60,132 nucleotides of DNA from Aerococcus sp. (GTDB lineage Bacteria > Bacillota > Bacilli > Lactobacillales > Aerococcaceae). Below are positions 21,720 through 29,907 of the stretch, in pieces. The number at the start of each line of letters is the position of its first letter. The first letter of the stretch is position 1. Under the pieces are notes generated by a model. The model saw only the letters and a list, made by a program, of their open reading frames with translations, ran no database searches and was not told the origin of the DNA. Location of the stretch: NCBI GenBank assembly GCA_030528155.1, contig JAUMZL010000013.1:1-60132 (forward strand), read 5' to 3'. The position numbers and the translations under genes are program-made.

Positions 21720-22112
21720 GTGGCACAAGCACAATACACAGGAACTGGACGCCGTAAAGATTCTACTGCCCGCGTACGCTTAGTACCTGGTAGTGGTAAA
21801 GTGATCTTCAACGGAAAATCCATGGAAGAATACCTACCTTACGCTTCATTATTCGTTATTGTTCAACAACCGTTCGCAATCACCGAAACGGAAGGACAAT
21901 ACGATGCTTACATCAACGTTAACGGTGGTGGATTCACTGGCCAATCTGGTGCAGCACGTCACGGTATTGCCCGCGCATTGCTCCAAGTTGACCCAGACTT
22001 CCGCAAACCATTGAAAGAAGCTGGCCTGTTGACACGTGACCCTCGTATGAAGGAACGTCGTAAACCAGGTCTGAAGAAAGCGCGTAAAGCACCACAATTC
22101 TCAAAACGTTAA
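21720..22112 (+). CDS. rpsI: 30S ribosomal protein S9 (GTG start); integration target
   Basis: S9 reaches the P-site tRNA with its C-terminal tail. The 130-aa protein starts at GTG 21720 after AAGGAGGG and ends in the invariant Lys-Arg (QFSKR). The last codons and stop form the attachment core of the mobile element that follows: insertion leaves the reading frame intact because the core TCTCAAAACGTTAAT restores the codons for Ser-Lys-Arg-stop. Confidence 0.97.
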
Positions 22113-22113
22113 T
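22099..22113 (+). repeat. attL core
   Basis: TCTCAAAACGTTAAT, overlapping the last codons of rpsI, is repeated exactly at 29842-29856. Confidence 0.88.
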
Positions 22114-22150
22114 CAATTCCTTATTGTATCAACGTTTACAAGAATTTTTT

Positions 22151-22170
22151 GGTTCAAGTTGGTTCAAATT
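22151..22170 (+). repeat. Left arm-type integrase sites
   Basis: Two tandem copies of GGTTCAARTT lie 38 bases inside the left core. The same pair in the same orientation occurs at 29711-29730 inside the right end. The integrase has an N-terminal arm-binding domain, so these are its probable arm sites. Confidence 0.75.
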
Positions 22171-23218
22171 ATAAATTTGACAAAGAATTTAAGAGGTTTA
22201 AAGCATCAGCATCTTGCTGGTGCTTTTTTTCTGGCATCAATTCAAGATAATAGTTCTGCGTTGTTTGAATATTGATATGACCTAAGCGTTTTGATACATA
22301 GGCAATATCAATATCTTGTGAAAATAGAAAAGAAGCATGAGTATCTCTTAGGCCGTGGAAGGTAGTTTTTGGAATATCTAGTTTTTTCAGTAATCTGGCG
22401 AGCTTAGCAGATTGTTGAAAGCCGTCAGGATCAAAAAAATATCCATTATCTTTAATCGGGACAGATTTTAGAATATCGTAGACTTCTTGATTAATGGAAA
22501 TATCTCGTCTTGAATTTTTTGTTTTTAACGAGGTATCTTCAGAAGTTGGACTAAGGGAACGTCTGACATGGATACCATATTCAAAGAGGTCTTCGGGACG
22601 TATACCTAAAAGCTCTCCGCGTCTCATGCCAGTTTCTAAGGCAAGGAGTACAAGAATGTTAAACTCATTTTCTCGATGATTAATGACATAAGTACGCAGT
22701 TTCTTTAATTCGGTAATAGAAAGTGCACGGTTTCTCTTATCTAAAACTTTCCCTCGTGTTTTGACTAAATTTGCAAAATCGGTAGCAAGATAGCCACGAG
22801 CATAAGCATCACGTAATGCCGTTTTGATTTTCAATAGTACTTCATGAGTGGTTTTACGAGAATGAGTTTCTGCATACTTATCTATTTTTCGTTGTACTAC
22901 AATATCGTTCAAATCCTTTAACTGTATATCGCCAAATAATTTCTTCACCACTTGAGAAGTCCTTTGATAATTTTGAAAAGTCGTTTCTTTTACATCGTTT
23001 TTCTTTATGATATGAATCCAGTTTTCAAAGAAGTCAGCAAATGTTGTTGTACGCTCTGCTAATTGTTTTCCATTTCCTTTCTCCAATTCATTTTCCAAAG
23101 CCCAACGAGTTGCTTCCTTTTTAGAGCTAAATGATTTTGTCAATTTCTTATGTTGACCATGATTGTAAAGTGAGATCTGAGCTCTATATGAGTTACCACG
23201 TTTAATTATACTAGGCAT
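22169..23218 (-). CDS. int: Tyrosine recombinase (integrase) of the element
   Basis: A 349-aa phage/Tn916-type integrase that catalyses integration and excision at the rpsI core. Domains: N-terminal AP2-like arm-binding domain (~1-50), core-binding SAM-like domain (~60-150), catalytic domain (~165-349). Catalytic residues visible are R199 (TGMRRGELLG), H288 and R291 (FHGLRDTH), H314 (LGHINIQTT) and the tyrosine Y323/Y324. It ends 56 bases from rpsI, convergent with it; its last codons contain a plus-strand terminator. RBS GAAAGG lies just upstream. Confidence 0.93.
   Translation of the reverse strand: MPSIIKRGNSYRAQISLYNHGQHKKLTKSFSSKKEATRWALENELEKGNGKQLAERTTTFADFFENWIHIIKKNDVKETTFQNYQRTSQVVKKLFGDIQLKDLNDIVVQRKIDKYAETHSRKTTHEVLLKIKTALRDAYARGYLATDFANLVKTRGKVLDKRNRALSITELKKLRTYVINHRENEFNILVLLALETGMRRGELLGIRPEDLFEYGIHVRRSLSPTSEDTSLKTKNSRRDISINQEVYDILKSVPIKDNGYFFDPDGFQQSAKLARLLKKLDIPKTTFHGLRDTHASFLFSQDIDIAYVSKRLGHINIQTTQNYYLELMPEKKHQQDADALNLLNSLSNL
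22202..22230 (+). terminator. Plus-strand terminator inside the int coding region
   Basis: AGCATCAGCA (22202-22211), loop TCT, TGCTGGTGCT (22215-22224), then seven T. The stem lies within int codons for KKHQQDADAL near the C-terminus. Its orientation would stop transcripts coming from rplM-rpsI. Confidence 0.8.
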
Positions 23219-23242
23219 TTATAACAAATCCTTTCACTGAAA

Positions 23243-23309
23243 GATGGTTGATAAATGCTAGTTGAATACACCGTCATTCTACATGGCGAAAAGCATCTAA
23301 TCAACCATC
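23243..23309. repeat. Inverted repeat between xis and int
   Basis: GATGGTTGAT (23243-23252) with ATCAACCATC (23300-23309), plus inner ATGCT/AGCAT, forms a long hairpin in the ~100-base int leader. It may attenuate int or bind Int/Xis. Confidence 0.6.
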
Positions 23310-23323
23310 CTACGATATTTTAG

Positions 23324-23521
23324 CTAGATAGAGTGCGTCTTAATAAAATTAATGAGGGAAGTGACAGTGTATCGTTCTTGTCTTCCTATCATAAAACGCT
23401 CTAACTCATCGTTTGCGCGAACGAATTTATCAAAAGATTTTGGATCGATCCCTAAAAAATGAGAAGCTTGTTCTCTAGTAAGTAGATAGGGCAATTCATA
23501 AGTAGTTATTGTATTTTTCAT
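23324..23521 (-). CDS. xis: Small excisionase-like winged-helix protein
   Basis: A 65-aa protein with a MerR/excisionase-like helix-turn-helix (LTREQASHFLGIDPKSFDKFV, about residues 15-35) and a wing-like GRQERYTV stretch. Size and position just upstream of int on the same strand match Tn916-type Xis proteins, which direct excision. The function is inferred from context. RBS GGAAAGGAAA lies before ATG 23521. Confidence 0.7.
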   Translation of the reverse strand: MKNTITTYELPYLLTREQASHFLGIDPKSFDKFVRANDELERFMIGRQERYTVTSLINFIKTHSI

Positions 23522-23610
23522 AGTTTATTTCCTTTCCAAAAATGTTTTTTGGCTGACACAAGGAAATGTGCTATACTCAACTTGTCTAGGGCGGAGTACG
23601 TTTATACATT

Positions 23611-24867
23611 TTAATGTGTAAGCTGTGCTTTGCTTTTTTTGTGTATTTTTTCTGCCTTCATATTTTGAAGACACTGGATATAAAATTCTACTTCTTCCTG
23701 ATAATAATCAGGCTCAGCAATCAAATTTTCTAATATTTTTTGCTGCCTTGAACTAAGTTCCCCACAGCTAATAATCTCGTTAATCAAATTTGAATCAAAA
23801 TGATTATCTACCTCTTGAATAAATGCGAGGGTGGGAGAAACGCTGTGAATTAACCAATTCATACTTTTCTCAAAGCTTTGAGGAATTGTTTCTAAAGAAA
23901 TGGTGGTTGCGCCATGATTGCCAATAAAGGCTGCCCATTTGGCATCGACTTTTGCACCTGGATCATTTGGAGCACGGTCATAAAAACAAATTGCCCCATT
24001 AAGTAACTCAAAGAATAGTTTGGTTAAATCATGGGTTTTTGAAATAATCTTTGCCAAGCTTTGCGCTTTCTCTTTTCGATACCGTAGTTCAAAGCGATTT
24101 TTTACTTCTGCTTCTTCTAAAGAAATTCCTCGTCGCTTTCGTTGTTCATAATCCTTCTGATAAAAGCAAAAGCGACACTGACTCTTCTTTGAGCCTAAAT
24201 ACAAGGTCTCACCATTTGATTCATTGTTTATGATATTCGTACCGCCATGAGATTCACTCACTTGAAAAGTGGTCCACACATGGCCTAGTGTTACCTTACG
24301 CTTCAGTTCTGGAATGCTGAGACTCCCCACAAAATCATCTAAAGTAAAATCAATCCGTGTAAAGTTTCCCTGATAATCTAATACCTTACGGAAGAACTCT
24401 TGCCAGTTTGATTTTGCGGTCTTCAAACGCATGGCAAGATGTTTACAGCCTTGACCTGAAAACTCCATTACGGTTCCTTTTACCGTATCGTCAATGGAAT
24501 ACCGAATCGTGATTACTTGATTCCAAACATATTGCCCAATATAGCCCTTTGGCGCATAATCCAGTTCCTCAAAGCGTTCAATAGGCATGCCAATAATCTC
24601 TTCAATCAACTTTAAATGTTGATTCGAGAAAAAGTGAATGGTTAGATAATCAATCAAAACACGATTAACTGGAACAATCTCTTCTTGCAAACTATCCAAT
24701 ACAAGATTCAGTTTTTCTGCACTTAATCGTCTCGTTCCTTTTTCTACCTTTGATAGTAACGACCTCGAAATCCCCACTTTTTCTGCTAAATATCGCTGGG
24801 TCCACCCCCTTTCTTCTCGAGAAACTCGAATGGCTTCCCCGAGATCATGTTGATTGACTTGGTTCAT
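23611..24867 (-). CDS. mobT: MobT-type relaxase / replication initiation factor
   Basis: A 418-aa protein with an N-terminal XRE helix-turn-helix (~9-62, GWTQRYLAEKVGISRSLLSKVEKG) and a Rep_trans domain (~80-400) with the family stretch YLGSKKSQCRFCFYQKDYEQ. This architecture is that of MobT relaxases (Tn916 Orf20, ICEBs1 NicK), which nick oriT and can start rolling-circle replication. GAAGGAGG precedes ATG 24867. A matching oriT is at 25929-25952. It would let the element be moved by a co-resident ICE. Confidence 0.88.
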   Translation of the reverse strand: MNQVNQHDLGEAIRVSREERGWTQRYLAEKVGISRSLLSKVEKGTRRLSAEKLNLVLDSLQEEIVPVNRVLIDYLTIHFFSNQHLKLIEEIIGMPIERFEELDYAPKGYIGQYVWNQVITIRYSIDDTVKGTVMEFSGQGCKHLAMRLKTAKSNWQEFFRKVLDYQGNFTRIDFTLDDFVGSLSIPELKRKVTLGHVWTTFQVSESHGGTNIINNESNGETLYLGSKKSQCRFCFYQKDYEQRKRRGISLEEAEVKNRFELRYRKEKAQSLAKIISKTHDLTKLFFELLNGAICFYDRAPNDPGAKVDAKWAAFIGNHGATTISLETIPQSFEKSMNWLIHSVSPTLAFIQEVDNHFDSNLINEIISCGELSSRQQKILENLIAEPDYYQEEVEFYIQCLQNMKAEKIHKKSKAQLTH

Positions 24868-24913
24868 AGAAAAACCTCCTTCTGCTATTAAATTGTCAAA
24901 GAACCATCAGACT

Positions 24914-24995
24914 TATTTTAAGTACAAATCGATTGTACGCCTGTATTTATTTTAAGTCAATACATTTTGACTTTTTTTAAGTACAAGCGTATACT
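24914..24995. promoter_or_regulatory. Divergent mobT/regulator promoters with repeated operators
   Basis: Minus strand: TTGACT (24955-24960), 17 bases, TACAAT (24932-24937) for mobT. Plus strand: TTGACT (24967-24972), 17 bases, TATACT (24990-24995) for the regulator. TTTTAAGTACAA-like words occur at 24916-24927, 24950-24960 and 24975-24986, and GTACAA/TTGTAC form an inverted repeat at 24922-24938. These are probable operators for the XRE regulator at 25029. Confidence 0.75.
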
Positions 24996-25028
24996 GAATT
25001 TAAGAACTTATCATGAGGAGGAGTTTTC

Positions 25029-25841
25029 ATGGAGATAGACAAGCAAGCAGTGGGCAATCGAATTCGCCAGATTCGCCAAGAGTTAAAGTTGAGTATGGAG
25101 AAATTTGGCAAACTAATTGGTGATTTACCACGAAGCACTGTCAATAATTGGGAACGCGGGATTAATCTTCCAAAAACCGAAACTCTTCACCAGATTGCGA
25201 AGGTAGGTCATGTCACCAATGAATATCTTCTGTATGGTGATCAAGAGAATCAATACATTTTAGAAATGCTTCAAAAGAAGGCAGGTAAGCTTGATCCTAA
25301 GATTGAAGGACTGATAGTAGACGAACTGAAACAAGCAGGTCATGTCAGTGAAAAAGAAATGGATCGTATGATTGAATTTTTTATTACAAACCTCATTCCA
25401 CCAACCGAACAAGACCAGTTTACTTTCCAATGTATCGATGAGAAAAAGCAACTTTACCTTGGTTCAACCAATTTTGGTAAAGAAGCGCAACTCTATTTAC
25501 ACCATGATAATCAAAATCATATTCTGCACATTCTGCCCTTTACCTTCTCCAACTTTAGTGTGGATCGCTTACTCGTCTATTTAGCAAATCAAGAATCCTA
25601 TTCCTATTTTGGGAAACATTTGCCCAAGGAACTAGGTGAAAAAGTCATTCTTCTATACTCGATCAATCAATTGACCGGCGATGTTCGAATCGCCCCATTA
25701 GTCTATTCAAAAGAAACAGCCTCCTATCAATACACAGAAGATAATCTATACCTATTAGAACAACAATACCTCTATCTTCCATTCGCAATGGAAATCGAGA
25801 AAGAACGCCTGTTAAATGCAGCGTATACGCAATCAAAATAA
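25029..25841 (+). CDS. XRE-family regulator of the mobile element
   Basis: A 270-aa protein with an N-terminal helix-turn-helix (~8-62, SMEKFGKLIGDLPRSTVNNWERG) and a ~200-aa C-terminal region I do not recognise. It is transcribed divergently from mobT, with operators shared between the promoters, so it likely controls mobT and itself. GAGGAGGAG precedes ATG 25029. It has no peptidase (ImmA/HExxH) motif. Confidence 0.8.
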   Translation: MEIDKQAVGNRIRQIRQELKLSMEKFGKLIGDLPRSTVNNWERGINLPKTETLHQIAKVGHVTNEYLLYGDQENQYILEMLQKKAGKLDPKIEGLIVDELKQAGHVSEKEMDRMIEFFITNLIPPTEQDQFTFQCIDEKKQLYLGSTNFGKEAQLYLHHDNQNHILHILPFTFSNFSVDRLLVYLANQESYSYFGKHLPKELGEKVILLYSINQLTGDVRIAPLVYSKETASYQYTEDNLYLLEQQYLYLPFAMEIEKERLLNAAYTQSK

Positions 25842-25928
25842 GGTGACAAGATTGATAAGCATGTGACAAAGAAAACACTGCTAGGACACTCCCAAATGGG
25901 TAGTTGTCACAGTTTCCTGTTCTTTGTT

Positions 25929-25952
25929 AGCCCCCTGTTAGAAAGAGGGGCT
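25929..25952 (-). other. oriT: Candidate oriT of ICEBs1/Tn916 type
   Basis: On the minus strand a 24-base GC-rich imperfect inverted repeat has arms AGCCCC and GGGGGCT around CTAACAGGGGG. It has the same length and layout as the ICEBs1 oriT as I remember it, sharing the CTAACAGGGGG half where NicK cuts. It lies about 1.1 kb upstream of mobT. Further inverted repeats (CCCAAATGGG near 25891 and a GTGACAA/TTGTCAC pair) flank it. Confidence 0.75.
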
Positions 25953-25990
25953 TGCCCATGCAGTCCGGCTACGCCGTCCTGCAACAGCAT

Positions 25991-26048
25991 TAAAAAGAGG
26001 AAAGACTAGCTTATACGGCGCTGCCGTCGCTAGTCTTTCCTCTTTTTA
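25991..26048. terminator. Bidirectional terminator between oriT and cadA
   Basis: A perfect 20-bp stem (25991-26010 with 26029-26048) ending in A/T runs on both sides, with a small ACGGC/GCCGT inner stem. It can end the leftward cad transcript and rightward transcripts from the regulator. Confidence 0.85.
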
Positions 26049-26061
26049 TGCTACTACTTGT

Positions 26062-28180
26062 CTATTTAGATTTAACTTTCATCAGTCGTAAGCCGTTCAA
26101 GGTAACTAATATAGTTGCTCCCATATCAGCTAAGATAGCAATCCATAACGTTAACCAGCCTGGAACTACAAGTAATAATGCTAATAGTTTGATTCCCAAT
26201 GAGAAGGTAATATTTTGCTTAATGATTCTCAATGTTTGTCGACTTAATTTAACTATAAAGGGAAGTTTCTGTAAGTCATCACCCATTAAAGCTACATCAG
26301 CTGTTTCTAAAGCTGTATCTGTTCCAGCGCCCCCCCATTGCGATACCGACTGTTGAGGCAGCTAATGCTGGTGCGTCATTAATACCATCACCAACCATGG
26401 CGACTTTTCCATAGGTTTCCTTAAGTGATTTAATATAATCTAATTTATCTTGAGGCATCAAATCGCCTTTTATTTCAGTTACACCTGTTTGTTTTCCGAT
26501 TGACTGAGCAGTTGTAGCATTATCACCAGTCAGCATTATCGTATGCTCGATTCCTAAATCATGTAATTTTTCAATGACTGCTTTACTTGATTCTCTTAAC
26601 TCATCAGCTACTGCAATGACTGCTAAAATTTGTTTATCTGTTCCTAAGAGCATTGCTGTTTTTCCTTGTTGCTGAAGTCTTTGGTAATTTTCAATAATCT
26701 TTGAGTTATCTGTTAAGATAGATTCAAAAAGCTTTGGACTCCCTACAAGATAGGTAATCCCCTCAATGTTTCCTTGTATTCCTTTTCCAGTAATTGAAGT
26801 AAACTCGTCAACAACTACTGATTTATAAGAAATCGCTCTATTATCAGCTTCTTTTAAGATTGCTGACGCGAGAGGGTGTTGAGAATATGATTCTAATGCT
26901 GTAATAATTGAGAAATATTTCTCTTCGTCTTTTGAATCAACTGTAGTGAAATCTGTTACCGTTGGTGTTCCTTTAGTCAATGTTCCTGTTTTGTCAAAGG
27001 CAATCGCCTTGAGGCCACCAATTTCTTCAAGATAAATACCGCCTTTTACCAAAACACCATTTTTAGCAGAGTTTCCAATTGCTGAAACGATAGACACAGG
27101 TGTTGAGATTACTAAAGAACAAGGACAGCCAACAACTAATAAAGAGAGCCCTTGATACAACCAAGTATTCCAATCTCCGTTAAAAAATAATGGGGGAACG
27201 ATGACGATTAATGCGGCAATCACCATAATGGTGGGTGTATAATATTTCGCAAATTTATCGACAAATGCTTGAGCAGGTGCTCGTTCACCTTGTGCTTCTT
27301 CAACTAGGTGAATAATTTTGGCAATTGTCGTGTCGTTCACATGCTTTGTAACTTTGACTTCAAGTGCACCTTCTTCATTAATCGTTCCTGCAAAGATATC
27401 ATCATTAATATTTTTTTCAATAGGGACAGATTCACCGGTAATCGCAGCCTGATTTACTGAGGAATGGCCTTTAATGACTTGACCATCCATAGCAATTTTT
27501 TGTCCAGGCTTAATGATCATAATATCGCCTACTTCGATTTTTGAAACATTAATCATTTGTTCAACATTATTTCTTCTAATTAATGCTTCTTTCGGAGCAA
27601 TATCCATTAGGGAACGTATTGATTGTCTTGCTTTATCCATTGAAAACCGTTCTAAAGCTTCGCTAATTGCAAATAAGATAACAACGATTGAGCCCTCAGT
27701 CCACTCGCCAATAATTGCAGCACCAATGATTGCAATTGTCATAAGAGATTCCATTGAGAAATTCAATTTTAATAGGTCTGAAAATCCTTCTTTAAACAAA
27801 CTAAATCCGCCGATAATAATCGCTAGTATAAATAATCCTTCTGTTAATAGCGCATCTTCACCGTTAACTACTTGAGATCCTAATGCCAAAATAATTAAAA
27901 ACAGTGAAACCAATAGGTTCCAGTTTCTTTTCACAAAAGGCTCTTTTGTTTCAATGCGAGGTTCTGTATCATGTTCGGACTGAACTTTAAGATTCTCAAA
28001 AGCTCCTGCAGCTTCAATTTCCGCAATAGTCGCTTCGCCTTCGATAGAGATTTTTCCGGCACCGAAATTTACTTTTGCATCGGTAACTTTTGGTATTTGA
28101 GAAACATTTTTTTCGAATTTTGCCGCACAATTCGTACAGCTCAATCCTTCAACCCGATAGACTTGTTTTTTTTCACTCAT
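26062..28180 (-). pseudogene. cadA: Cadmium/zinc-exporting P1B ATPase, broken by a +1 frameshift in a G7 run
   Basis: CadA pumps Cd2+, Zn2+ and Pb2+ out of the cell. Visible motifs are an N-terminal HMA domain (GLSCTNC), GESVP, the CPC metal motif (VGCPCS), DKTGTLT with the phosphorylated Asp, SQHPLA, and GDGINDAPA. The first frame runs 28180 to 26297 (627 aa) and ends wrongly after GIAMGG; the correct C-terminus with the last membrane helices continues in another frame (26286-26062). One extra G at 26330-26336 (plus strand C7) explains it; with six G the product would be ~705 aa, the family length. The cause could be a true mutation, slippage or a sequencing error. Confidence 0.88.
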
Positions 28181-28536
28181 ACTAGCACCTCATCTTCTAA
28201 ATACAGTTTGGAATTTAGTAGTTGGACAAATTTATCATTCTTGATAGAGTAATAAACCAATTTCCCTACTTTCCGACTCACAACAATTCCATTTTTTTTC
28301 AATGATAATAAATGGTGTGAGGTTGTTGCCACGGTTGCCTCGATAGTTGCTGCGATATCACATACACATAATTCATCCTCATAACTTAGGGCGTAGATAA
28401 TTTTTAAGCGATTCTCATCAGCTAAAATTTTGAAGACACTTTTTAAGCTCGAAATATCCTCAGTTTGTAACTTTTCTTTTCCTAGTAAAACTTTATCTTC
28501 ATGAACACATGAGATTTCACAAATTTCGTTTTTCAT
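28177..28536 (-). CDS. cadC: ArsR/SmtB-family metal-responsive repressor
   Basis: A 119-aa winged-helix repressor that releases DNA on binding Cd/Pb/Zn. The metal site cysteines of CadC are present: C6 and C10 in the N-terminal arm, and C57 and C59 in ELCVCD. Its stop overlaps the cadA start (ATGA), giving coupling. GGAGGAG precedes the ATG. It should bind the palindrome overlapping its own promoter. Confidence 0.92.
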
Positions 28537-28572
28537 ACAGCTCCTCCTTTATTCTAATGGATATTTGAATGT

Positions 28573-28613
28573 AGTGTATCATAGATTAATAGAATAATCA
28601 AATTTTAATTTGA
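28573..28613 (-). promoter_or_regulatory. cadCA promoter and operator
   Basis: On the minus strand TTGATT (28596-28601), 17 bases, TACACT (28573-28578). The palindrome TCAAATTTTAATTTGA (28598-28613) overlaps the -35, a good position for CadC repression. Confidence 0.8.
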
Positions 28614-28730
28614 ATATGTGAGGAGTTATATAGATTGTATGGATGCATCTATATAAGTAGTGATTTTCAAATTAGATTGAATCGAATGCAAATAATAAAC
28701 TAATTAATTTGAACTGAAAGACAGAAGCAT

Positions 28731-28759
28731 TTGACAAAACATAGATGATTATCTATATT
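28731..28759 (+). promoter_or_regulatory. arsC promoter with an operator between -35 and -10
   Basis: TTGACA (28731-28736), 17 bases, TATATT (28754-28759). The inverted repeat ATAGATGATTATCTAT (28741-28756) sits in the spacer, suited to an ArsR-type repressor. The ~130-base leader that follows carries a TGGCA/TGCCA hairpin near 28790. Confidence 0.75.
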
Positions 28760-28893
28760 TTTACATAAGCGCCGGCAGTTGGCATCTTAGTTGAAGTGCC
28801 AGTCATGTTACTGTTAGTTAAAATATCTAATCGCACAAAAAAATTGGTTCATTCAAAATCCATCAGAATTGTCTGATATCGGAGGAAATAATA

Positions 28894-29301
28894 ATGAGAA
28901 AAATTTATTTTTTATGTACAGGCAATTCTTGTCGTAGTCAAATTGCAGAAGGCTATGGGAAAGCGATTTTGCCAACAGATGAATTTGAAATTAAAAGCGC
29001 CGGCATTGAACAACATGGGTTAAATCCTAGAGCCGTTCAAGTAATGGCTGAGGAAGGGATAGATATCTCTACGCAAACATCTGATTTGATCGATATGGAT
29101 TATTTTAATCAAGCAGACCTAATTATTACGCTATGTGGCGATGCCAAAGATAAATGTCCAGTAATTCCAAAAGGGATTAAGCATGTTCATTGGGATTTGG
29201 AAGATCCAGCCAAAGCAACTGGAACAGAAGAAGAAATCATTAATAAATTCAGAGAAATTAGAGATGATATAAAAAGTCGTGTAGCGAATTTGCTAGATTA
29301 A
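28894..29301 (+). CDS. arsC: Arsenate reductase, thioredoxin-coupled type
   Basis: A 135-aa low-molecular-weight-phosphatase-fold arsenate reductase that converts arsenate to arsenite. The P-loop CTGNSCRSQ gives C8 and C13, and the redox pair C81 and C88 (LCGDAKDKC) is present, as in the pI258 enzyme. GGAGG lies 9 bases upstream. No arsB, acr3 or arsR is next to it, so the arsenite exporter must be elsewhere or the protein has another partner. Confidence 0.92.
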
Positions 29302-29841
29302 GTAGCAACTGTCATCCATCTCGGTAAAAGATAAAAAGACGTAAAATGTCCTTTTGATAAATTGGAAAATTAAAGTAAAAGCCGTGCGAAGTGAAACATA
29401 AATCTTCGATGGCTCTTACTATTTTAAGAGAAAAGGATCTGCTTTTGGCGTAAAATTGGATTTATCTATCTGACATACTGACGAGTATTTTTTGACCCTA
29501 TATTTGACCTTCTCAATCACATTTAAGTAGGTGTGACCGGCTTATACAATTATTCGAGAATCTAGTAGCTTAGCTAATTCTGGCCTTGAAACCCCTATTA
29601 GACAGCTATCCAGCCATCAATACGGTCTCAAATAAATAAGAGGGGAGGAATAACTCTAGAAAAGATTGATAAACTAGTAAGAAAATTGTATTCAACTACC
29701 ATTCATCTTTGGTTCAAATTGGTTCAAGTAATATCAATATTAATCCTATTTTATCCATATCAAACTGTTTTTTAGATGTTTGTAATGTTGATATAATTGG
29801 ATTTCTATTGATAGAAGTACTTGTAATAAGTACGAGTCACA
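29302..29841. other. Right end of the element without a gene
   Basis: About 540 bases with no credible frame. A hairpin after arsC (AGCC...GCGAAG with CTTCGATGGCT near 29376-29415) may stabilise or end the arsC transcript. The region ends with arm sites at 29711-29730. Confidence 0.55.
29711..29730 (+). repeat. Right arm-type integrase sites
   Basis: GGTTCAAATT GGTTCAAGTA in tandem, same orientation as the pair near the left end, about 110 bases from the right core. Confidence 0.75.
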
Positions 29842-29856
29842 TCTCAAAACGTTAAT
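29842..29856 (+). repeat. attR core
   Basis: TCTCAAAACGTTAAT, identical to the rpsI end at 22099-22113. Confidence 0.88.
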
Positions 29857-29875
29857 ATTTACGATTCAACGTTCA

Positions 29876-29907
29876 AAGCACTCTTCATTTTCGGAGAGTG
29901 CTTTTTT
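29876..29907 (+). terminator. Original rplM-rpsI terminator, displaced by the element
   Basis: AAGCACTCT (29876-29884) pairs with AGAGTGCTT (29895-29903), followed by six T. It lies 20 bases after attR with no gene just upstream, exactly where the rpsI terminator would be if the element were removed. Confidence 0.85.

Follow-up and report, generated by a model that had tools for sequence, protein, structure and literature searches.

We analysed a 60,132-nucleotide stretch of DNA from Aerococcus sp. (GenBank assembly GCA_030528155.1, contig JAUMZL010000013.1), called the window here, in which a mobile element of 7.7 kb lies behind the ribosomal protein operon rplM-rpsI. Our main result concerns a hairpin followed by a run of seven T at positions 22200-22230 of the plus strand, which is encoded wholly within the codons of the element's own integrase gene, int. 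Judged by sequence comparison, this hairpin is most probably a replacement intrinsic terminator for rpsI that is sometimes domesticated by the host (we place the probability of this reading, in which termination is predicted, at roughly 0.88). The layout of the insertion, the conservation of codons, the covariation on the plus strand, the relocation of the hairpin and its retention after loss of the element can each be followed in the sequences and argue for it.

A hairpin with a T-run inside the integrase gene

The host operon starts with rplM (ribosomal protein L13; 21262..21705, plus strand; Pfam PF00572, E 5.7e-45), followed by the target gene rpsI (ribosomal protein S9; 21720..22112, plus strand; PF00380, E 6.6e-47), which has a GTG start and ends with a TAA stop at 22112. 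A repeat search places a 15-bp direct repeat, TCTCAAAACGTTAAT, at both borders of the insertion: the attL core (22099..22113) contains the final rpsI codons and the stop, and the attR core (29842..29856) is its second copy. At one end int (22169..23218, minus strand) encodes a tyrosine integrase of 349 amino acids (PF00589, 7.2e-15; PF14659, 6.6e-8) convergent with rpsI. Two features expected of an integrative and mobilizable element (IME) that integrates at rpsI are present: a direct repeat at the 3' end of the target gene and a tyrosine integrase at one end. An earlier reading of this DNA from its letters (the sequence-only reading) had proposed that the element moved the native rpsI terminator by 7.7 kb, and this is confirmed by the repeats that bracket the insertion and by a terminator, AAAGCACTCTTCATTTTCGGAGAGTGCTTT, found beyond the right border by terminator scan and folding (29875..29904, plus strand; minimum free energy (MFE) with flanks -17.2 kcal/mol). 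With the flanks joined in silico, this terminator falls 19 nt past the rpsI stop.

The int-borne hairpin, found by scan, folding and comparison, consists of a 12-bp stem with a 3-nt loop (AAAGCATCAGCATCTTGCTGGTGCTTT, 22200-22226) and a T-run (22224-22230), and lies 87 nt past the rpsI stop. It is the opposite strand of int codons 330-340, as the codon alignment shows (codons 328-341, MPEKKHQQDADALN, cover 22196..22237 on the minus strand). The sequence-only reading had placed it at 22202-22230: the hairpin and its seven T are real, but the stem begins at 22200. A stable stem is followed immediately by a U-run on the transcribed strand, which is what intrinsic terminators look like in sequence. 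The MFE with flanks is -16.1 kcal/mol, against a mean of -7.3 for dinucleotide shuffles (z -4.1, none of 200 equal). A consensus terminator scan of 11 kb gives 11 terminator-like sites (shuffle mean 7.0), among which 12-bp stems occur only at 22200-22226 and 29875-29904. When the same amino acids are encoded at random with the codon use of these genes, 324 out of 20,000 synonymous encodings fold equally well; given that a single copy is therefore a roughly 1.6% event, the weight rests on comparative tests.

One such comparison is the base rate among open reading frames (ORFs) of at least 200 amino acids from the window and loci L002-L080. We counted opposite-strand terminators in the last 150 nt of each (stem of at least 10 with at most 1 mismatch, at least 5 T of 8, energy of -12 or lower), and found them in 44 of 46 ORFs of the int family against 9 of 821 other ORFs. 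Two of these nine belong to a different integrase that adjoins a copy of the rpsI 3' end. A chance palindrome was rejected as the origin of the int hairpin. A terminator for int itself on the minus strand was rejected too: no T-run follows the stem there, and pairing is no better on that strand.

Conservation, relocation and retention among relatives

A protein scan with int over contigs of named genomes yielded 79 loci (Enterococcus, Streptococcus, Lactococcus, Listeria, staphylococci, Bacillaceae and others). At these and at 4 further loci we examined the sequence behind int, and the hairpin motif with its T-run is present in 79 of the 83. Loci without the exact motif (L041, L043, L046, L081) were omitted from the resulting 79-locus motif set, which includes the window (L001) as well as L082 and L083, repeats of L049 and L051. 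The sequence-only reading had expected the same hairpin in other rpsI elements; this holds, since the motif occurs in 76 of the 79 scan loci, and L041, L043 and L046 keep 11 of 12 pairs with a change of D to E. As to position, 47 of 79 loci come immediately after a complete or contig-cut rpsI and 22 after a match to the rpsI 3' end alone; the latter are presumably tandem insertions. A further 4 loci show the att core only, and 6 show neither by pattern: L058 does have an att core, L079 resembles one only poorly, and at L033, L034, L035 and L074 int is followed by other genes.

At the codon level we reduced 54 full-length int genes to 35 below 97% identity, and to 33 after leaving out L033 and L034. 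For every column in which a single residue reaches at least 90%, synonymous diversity was set against the value expected from the codon use of these genes. The ratio is 0.17 for the 12 codons of the hairpin, which form the lowest window found in int, and 0.91 for the 133 other conserved columns (rank test, p 5e-8). All 33 integrases use AAG for Lys-332 and CAG for Gln-334, against an overall use of 26% (AAG) and 31% (CAG); the third bases of both codons form G-C pairs of the stem. Over the motif set AAG is used at Lys-332 in 74 of 79 loci. The AAA codon appears in L033, L034, L035 and L074, where int does not adjoin rpsI, and in L057, which is degenerate. For Ala, the stem uses GCT or GCC, by which A or G comes to face U; GCA is seen there at a single locus of the 79, L035, whose int, as just noted, is not next to rpsI.

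Variation in the stem follows the rules of RNA pairing on one strand. The 12 plus-strand pairs are kept in all 79 loci (11 of them in L035) as Watson-Crick or G.U pairs, with no A.C mismatch. Read on the minus strand, the same 79 hairpins form 9-12 pairs, and the plus strand folds lower in 78 of 79. Because G.U is tolerated and A.C never occurs on the plus strand, the constraint lies on plus-strand RNA. The T-run is likewise conserved, in 79 of 79 motif loci and in the more distant members behind rpsD described next.

These distant members, found by whole-genome searches, change the amino acids of the integrase tail together with the stem. L207 (67% identity, rpsI) has the tail HLQDADAL (Q to L), and its hairpin has U-A for A-U. 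L208 and L209 (54-55%, rpsI) have HSQDANAL (Q to S, D to N) with C-G replaced by U-A and A-U by C-G. L210 and L211 (45%) stand behind an rpsD-type gene and have the tail HAQNGRAM; their hairpin lies in the same int codons and ends in T7 or T8, and in comparison with the window 6 of 12 pairs are identical, 4 central pairs are replaced and 2 outer pairs lost. For L211 (read as L173, which is the same place, as L172 is the same place as L208) the target is identified by NCBIfam as 30S ribosomal protein S4, with PF00163 and PF01479; the L210 target was assigned to rpsD by ORF likeness. Over 17 distinct hairpins, including the free-standing L033 copy described below, 96.6% of cells pair, and the covariation score is 0.330 against 0.149 when shuffled, a value reached by none of 500 shuffles and by no slid register. 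Double changes occur at 4 stem pairs (as many in 2 of 500 shuffles). Since the rows are related and one is a free-standing copy, the covariation is strong but not a formal probability. Compensatory change thus holds the structure, as in an intrinsic terminator.

The signal follows the target gene rather than the integrase. Between int and rpsI lie 1.0-4.4 kb with other genes in L033 (Listeria grayi), L034 (Mammaliicoccus fleurettii) and L035 (Staphylococcus caeli), and in these loci a free-standing near-copy of the int hairpin, with T-run, lies 82-83 nt past the rpsI stop (in L034 it reads AAAGCATCAGCATAATTGCTGGTGCTTTTTTT; in L033 it carries a compensatory change from C-G to U-A). The copies inside int of L033, L034, L035 and L074 have the AAA codon at Lys-332, by which a G.U pair replaces G-C, and fold at -11.3 to -13.7 against a mean of -15.6 (n=79). 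A main role at the rpsI 3' end fits these relocated cases, and the int-less cases below, better than a role in protecting int only.

Retention of the hairpin without its element was studied with a degenerate hairpin pattern, which matches 56 places in 55 of 395 genomes of the order (reversed control: 0). The counts are not additive with those of the int scan, as the two samples share genomes. Of the 56 places, 35 are directly behind a full rpsI; an int frame open over 300 amino acids or more is present at 16 of these and absent at 19. Another 17 places are behind a match to the rpsI 3' end (int intact in 12, not intact in 5) and 4 are behind neither. Among the 19 without such a frame, 16 hold at most 32 int residues, L154 holds 65, and L120 and L122 match over the whole length with broken frames.

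Because the pattern sample was selected by the hairpin itself, a sample based on rpsI is the fairer test. In genus g19 (called Trichococcus-like since the tail of L145 matches that of Trichococcus palustris, L077) an rpsI match is found in 12 of 13 genomes, and the hairpin lies directly behind rpsI in 11 of the 12; an integrase of the window's type is found in 0 of the 13 at E 1e-40. Four of the 11 hairpins carry a loop change outside the degenerate pattern. In the twelfth genome, G062, another tyrosine integrase (PF00589) lies behind rpsI, preceded by its own terminator, and the older hairpin is 22 kb off, behind a copy of the rpsI 3' end. Across the 12 g19 tails, 21 of 45 columns vary before the hairpin, 6 of 34 in the hairpin and T-run, and 34 of 82 after it; only 2 variable columns fall in the stem, both still paired. 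In the window's genus the rpsI-based search of 15 genomes gives one scar, in G010 (L095), where int is broken off just past the T-run. These results suggest that some bacteria kept the int-derived hairpin after the element was lost.

Some further arrangements were seen at these places. On contig C41 of G062 (L108, L134) a later insertion at rpsI, with an integrase and a terminator of its own, has apparently pushed the older int-derived terminator 22 kb away, which repeats the event seen in the window at a further stage. In L137, L144 and L108 (g19) a repeat GACGGAGATTTCGAAAGAAATCGAGTACCA and its neighbours are inserted between rpsI and the retained hairpin, and similar repeats are found behind rpsI or its 3'-end copy in L093, L096 and L248. 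A hairpin of the GCATCAGCCTCGTGCTGGTGC type with T7 occurs in L123 (G228), away from any rpsI or int match.

Proposed mechanism and competing explanations

We propose the following sequence of events. Integration at the 3' end of rpsI restores its coding sequence and shifts the native terminator by 7.7 kb. RNA polymerase running past rpsI would cross attL and a putative arm site, and transcribe the 12-bp stem and U7, the complement of int codons 330-340. The arm site meant here is the left copy of an arm-type repeat (family D5; 22148..22173, extending a few bases into the int stop), 88% like the right copy at 29708..29733; we infer a role as integrase arm sites for both. Release of the polymerase is expected about 118 nt past the rpsI stop, by which the operon would retain a defined 3' end and no antisense transcript would run through int. 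Selection at the RNA level appears to have preserved stem and T-run; the price is fixed codons and, for some lineages, altered amino acids of the integrase tail. When an element decays, hosts could retain the fragment as rpsI terminator. Termination of this kind would presumably take place in cells and benefit both host and element. The idea of the sequence-only reading that the element supplies a replacement terminator as an adaptation to its site gains support from codon conservation, compensatory changes, the relocated hairpin and retention without int, all of which point to it at the level of sequence.

A number of observations weigh against this reading. The amino acids of one sequence alone make such a hairpin fairly easy (the 1.6% of encodings mentioned above). 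The rank test and the shuffles ignore the tree, and related sequences are not independent in them; 13 further pair types, counted as a control on the covariation, are matched by 10 of 500 shuffles. Pro-329 (22232-22234) is CCA in 33 of 33 integrases, though it lies outside stem and T-run. Weak hairpins are seen also at L066 (-12.3), which adjoins a copy of the rpsI 3' end, and at the degenerate L057 (-13.7), which adjoins rpsI. The 56 places were found via the hairpin, so that their count cannot show how frequently it is lost, and in g19 it was located by a pattern that fixes most of the stem (12 of 12 tails fitted). A second rpsI 3' end in the window's genome (L102, C24:15382-15432) is followed by a decayed hairpin of the GCGTTTCGC type whose T-run is gone; it is probably the scar of another rpsI element. 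Finally, L030, L049, L060, L075, L058 and L079 carry the hairpin without an adjoining rpsI coding match. The att core is present at five of these six (L079 has only the poor likeness), and we read them as insertions at secondary sites.

Among the competing explanations, the best survivor holds that the same terminator mainly serves the element: it would stop antisense transcription of int, coming from rpsI when integrated and from right-end cargo (arsC here) when circular, and the host 3' end would be a side effect. We consider this rather unlikely as the main role, while it is compatible with the preferred explanation. The arsC gene (28894-29301) indeed points at attR and would read into int in the circle, and the Tn916 end terminator is described, in the accessible part of PMC11658703, as insulating the genes of the element and as important to host fitness. 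Against this, the hairpin persists behind rpsI in int-less places, and L033, L034 and L035 have it beside rpsI, at a distance from int, whose own copy is weakened. Sparing int from antisense RNA, which the sequence-only reading had included, is a possible additional effect; as the hairpin persists where int is gone, protection of int is not needed as an explanation.

Stems at the 3' end protect mRNAs in general, and it might be argued that this one serves as a barrier in RNA processing or stability at the end of rpsI, with termination occurring downstream or through Rho. Acting by itself, such a barrier would have no need of the T-run, which is kept in all 79 motif loci and the rpsD members, and we regard this explanation as improbable. 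Slightly less probable still is a role of the dyad at the DNA level instead of as an RNA terminator, either as a site for Int, Xis or a host protein or as a single-stranded recombination hairpin. The dyad does lie near the arm-type repeat at the element end, and the conservation of the Pro-329 codon reaches past the T-run; but variation obeys RNA rules on one strand (G.U kept, A.C never), the rpsD members swap four central pairs with pairing and T-run intact, and int-less remnants keep the dyad. A DNA-only site was rejected. That the palindrome is a mere by-product of the conserved integrase tail (KKHQQDADAL), with no selection on RNA, is hardly credible, since the ease of random encodings speaks for it but codon conservation, compensatory amino-acid changes, free-standing copies outside int and retention without int all speak against it.

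Known systems and other arrangements at 3' ends

An RNA structure next to attP and the 3' end of int is familiar from the sib / tI region of phage lambda; there, sib is a processing site that works on the int strand, whereas the T-run in the window is on the opposite strand. For published mobile elements, the comparisons below draw on the accessible parts of the papers cited. Tn916 carries an intrinsic terminator, T1, near one end, which stops transcription from a host promoter (PMC11658703), as predicted for the int hairpin. T1 lies upstream of orf24 and blocks the element genes downstream (PMC11658703), whereas the int hairpin is placed in int codons on the opposite strand, stands behind one fixed target gene and can apparently outlive its element. 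T1 has been tested in cells and the int hairpin is known here from sequence alone. Insulation of same-orientation genes, as by T1, does not apply to the window, where the gene that spans the hairpin and extends beyond it is int, which runs on the opposite strand. ICEKp1, an integrative and conjugative element (ICE) at tRNA-asn, likewise sends the host terminator to its far end by 3'-end integration, but its int is codirectional and exploits the host promoter, whereas int in the window is convergent and a replacement terminator appears to be supplied (PMC13023037). The same target gene end and tyrosine integrases are shared by rpsI IMEs and ICEs of streptococci, IMESag-rpsI and the Macrococcus mecD islands (PMC5357655, PMC4701971, PMC7563491, PMC5090054, PMC5341023); IMESag-rpsI is also named with a Rep_trans protein, like the window element. 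In phage-inducible chromosomal islands (PICIs) that target fis, the att identity block lies at the end of a gene, typically with a terminator behind it, which is similar here; that block can reach into the terminator, and the 15-bp block of the window ends before it (PMC10111431). The 130-220-bp microCIMEs (cis-mobilizable elements) of composite islands in S. salivarius (PMC7563491) might, as a guess, include some hairpin scars.

The word 'terminator' does not occur in the main text of three papers on rpsI elements (PMC4701971, PMC5357655, PMC5341023); it occurs once in PMC5090054, in a reference, and twice in PMC7563491, about other elements. The accessible part of a streptococcal transcriptome (PMC6431027) does not name rpsI. 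Terminators near element ends are known (Tn916 T1), and a description of a replacement terminator inside integrase codons was not found in the literature searched, a scope outside which preprints and most subscription papers fall. The arrangement suggests a possible way for an element to sit behind an essential, highly transcribed operon, namely by bringing its own stop signal. It is also a clear example of an RNA signal on the opposite strand that shapes a protein sequence, as evidenced by the compensatory amino-acid changes, and it offers a route from mobile element to fixed host regulatory part. In practice the hairpin can mark attL ends and old insertion scars at rpsI, and we predict that other elements targeting 3' ends carry, copy or encode replacement terminators.

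A second integrase shows a comparable design. In L002 and L011 a copy of the rpsI 3' end adjoins a tyrosine integrase gene (PF00589) unlike int of the window, to which tblastn at 1e-4 finds no match. A hairpin of the AGGCGTTTCGCAA type, followed by a T-run, lies on the opposite strand and overlaps the stop and final codons of this gene. A hairpin of this type is also found behind rpsI in G018 (L098) and, in decayed form, behind the extra rpsI 3' end of the window's genome (L102). We hold it likely that three things are true jointly: in the rpsI/rpsD integrase clade a terminator on the other strand partly dictates the C-terminal amino acids, including replacements that restore the stem; once the element is lost, hosts go on using a piece of int as the usual terminator of an essential operon, nearly throughout g19; and the L002/L011 integrase reached an int-overlapping terminator independently.

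Other solutions occur as well. L212 (44%, rpsI) has no hairpin in these int codons and a separate terminator between att and int, and L248 (G003) has two core copies 7.3 kb apart, each with its own terminator outside int. Among 33 distant integrases (L174-L206; 27-33% identity), none with an rpsI match in the stretch fetched, an opposite-strand terminator is present in the scanned stretch in 18, and overlaps the last 60 nt of int in two of these, L188 and L206; L213-L215, at 34-35% identity, have none. The expectation that the hairpin is absent at other sites therefore holds in part: an int-overlapping terminator is seen in only 2 of 33 distant integrases, but the rpsD sister clade encodes one (its target presumably also loses its terminator). 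A pattern of att plus arm occurs in at least 126 of 395 genomes and is too wide to serve as a hairpin-free sample; of 30 such loci fetched, 11 carry the family hairpin, 14 another terminator 30-66 nt from the core and 5 none. Given these several arrangements, replacement terminators look common at rpsI, and placement inside int is the special feature.

In the same genus, extra copies of the rpsI 3' end with different terminator-like tails are seen in L101 and L103 (G013) and L099 (G018), which suggests stacked insertions at rpsI. Viral contigs gave 6 pattern-matching stretches, none confirmed. Plasmids gave 10 partial matches. The phage records gave one match, the unverified and unannotated Enterococcus phage OR846602.1 (L250, 35724-35864), in which the stretch from attL to the hairpin is 100% identical; this is probably bacterial DNA in the assembly.

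The remaining genes of the element are as follows. Behind int lies an ORF of 65 amino acids from the ORF list (23324..23521, minus strand), without matches in Pfam and NCBIfam profile searches; that it is an excisionase is a guess. A Rep_trans / MobT-like protein with an N-terminal helix-turn-helix (HTH), a putative relaxase, is encoded at 23611..24867 (minus strand; PF02486, 8.6e-49); it scores 233 bits against NCBIfam MobT, under the cut-off of 600. It is followed by an HTH regulator (25029..25841, plus strand; PF01381, 2.4e-11) and a heavy-metal P-type ATPase (26062..28180, minus strand), identified by family search with its larger ORF only. Its coding sequence falls into two ORFs, 26297-28180 and 26062-26286, that do not share a frame, owing to a genuine break or a sequencing error. 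An ArsR-family regulator (28177..28536, minus strand; PF01022, 1.4e-12) precedes arsC (28894..29301, plus strand), an arsenate reductase of the pI258 family (TIGR02691, 218 bits, above cut-off) that reads towards the right end.

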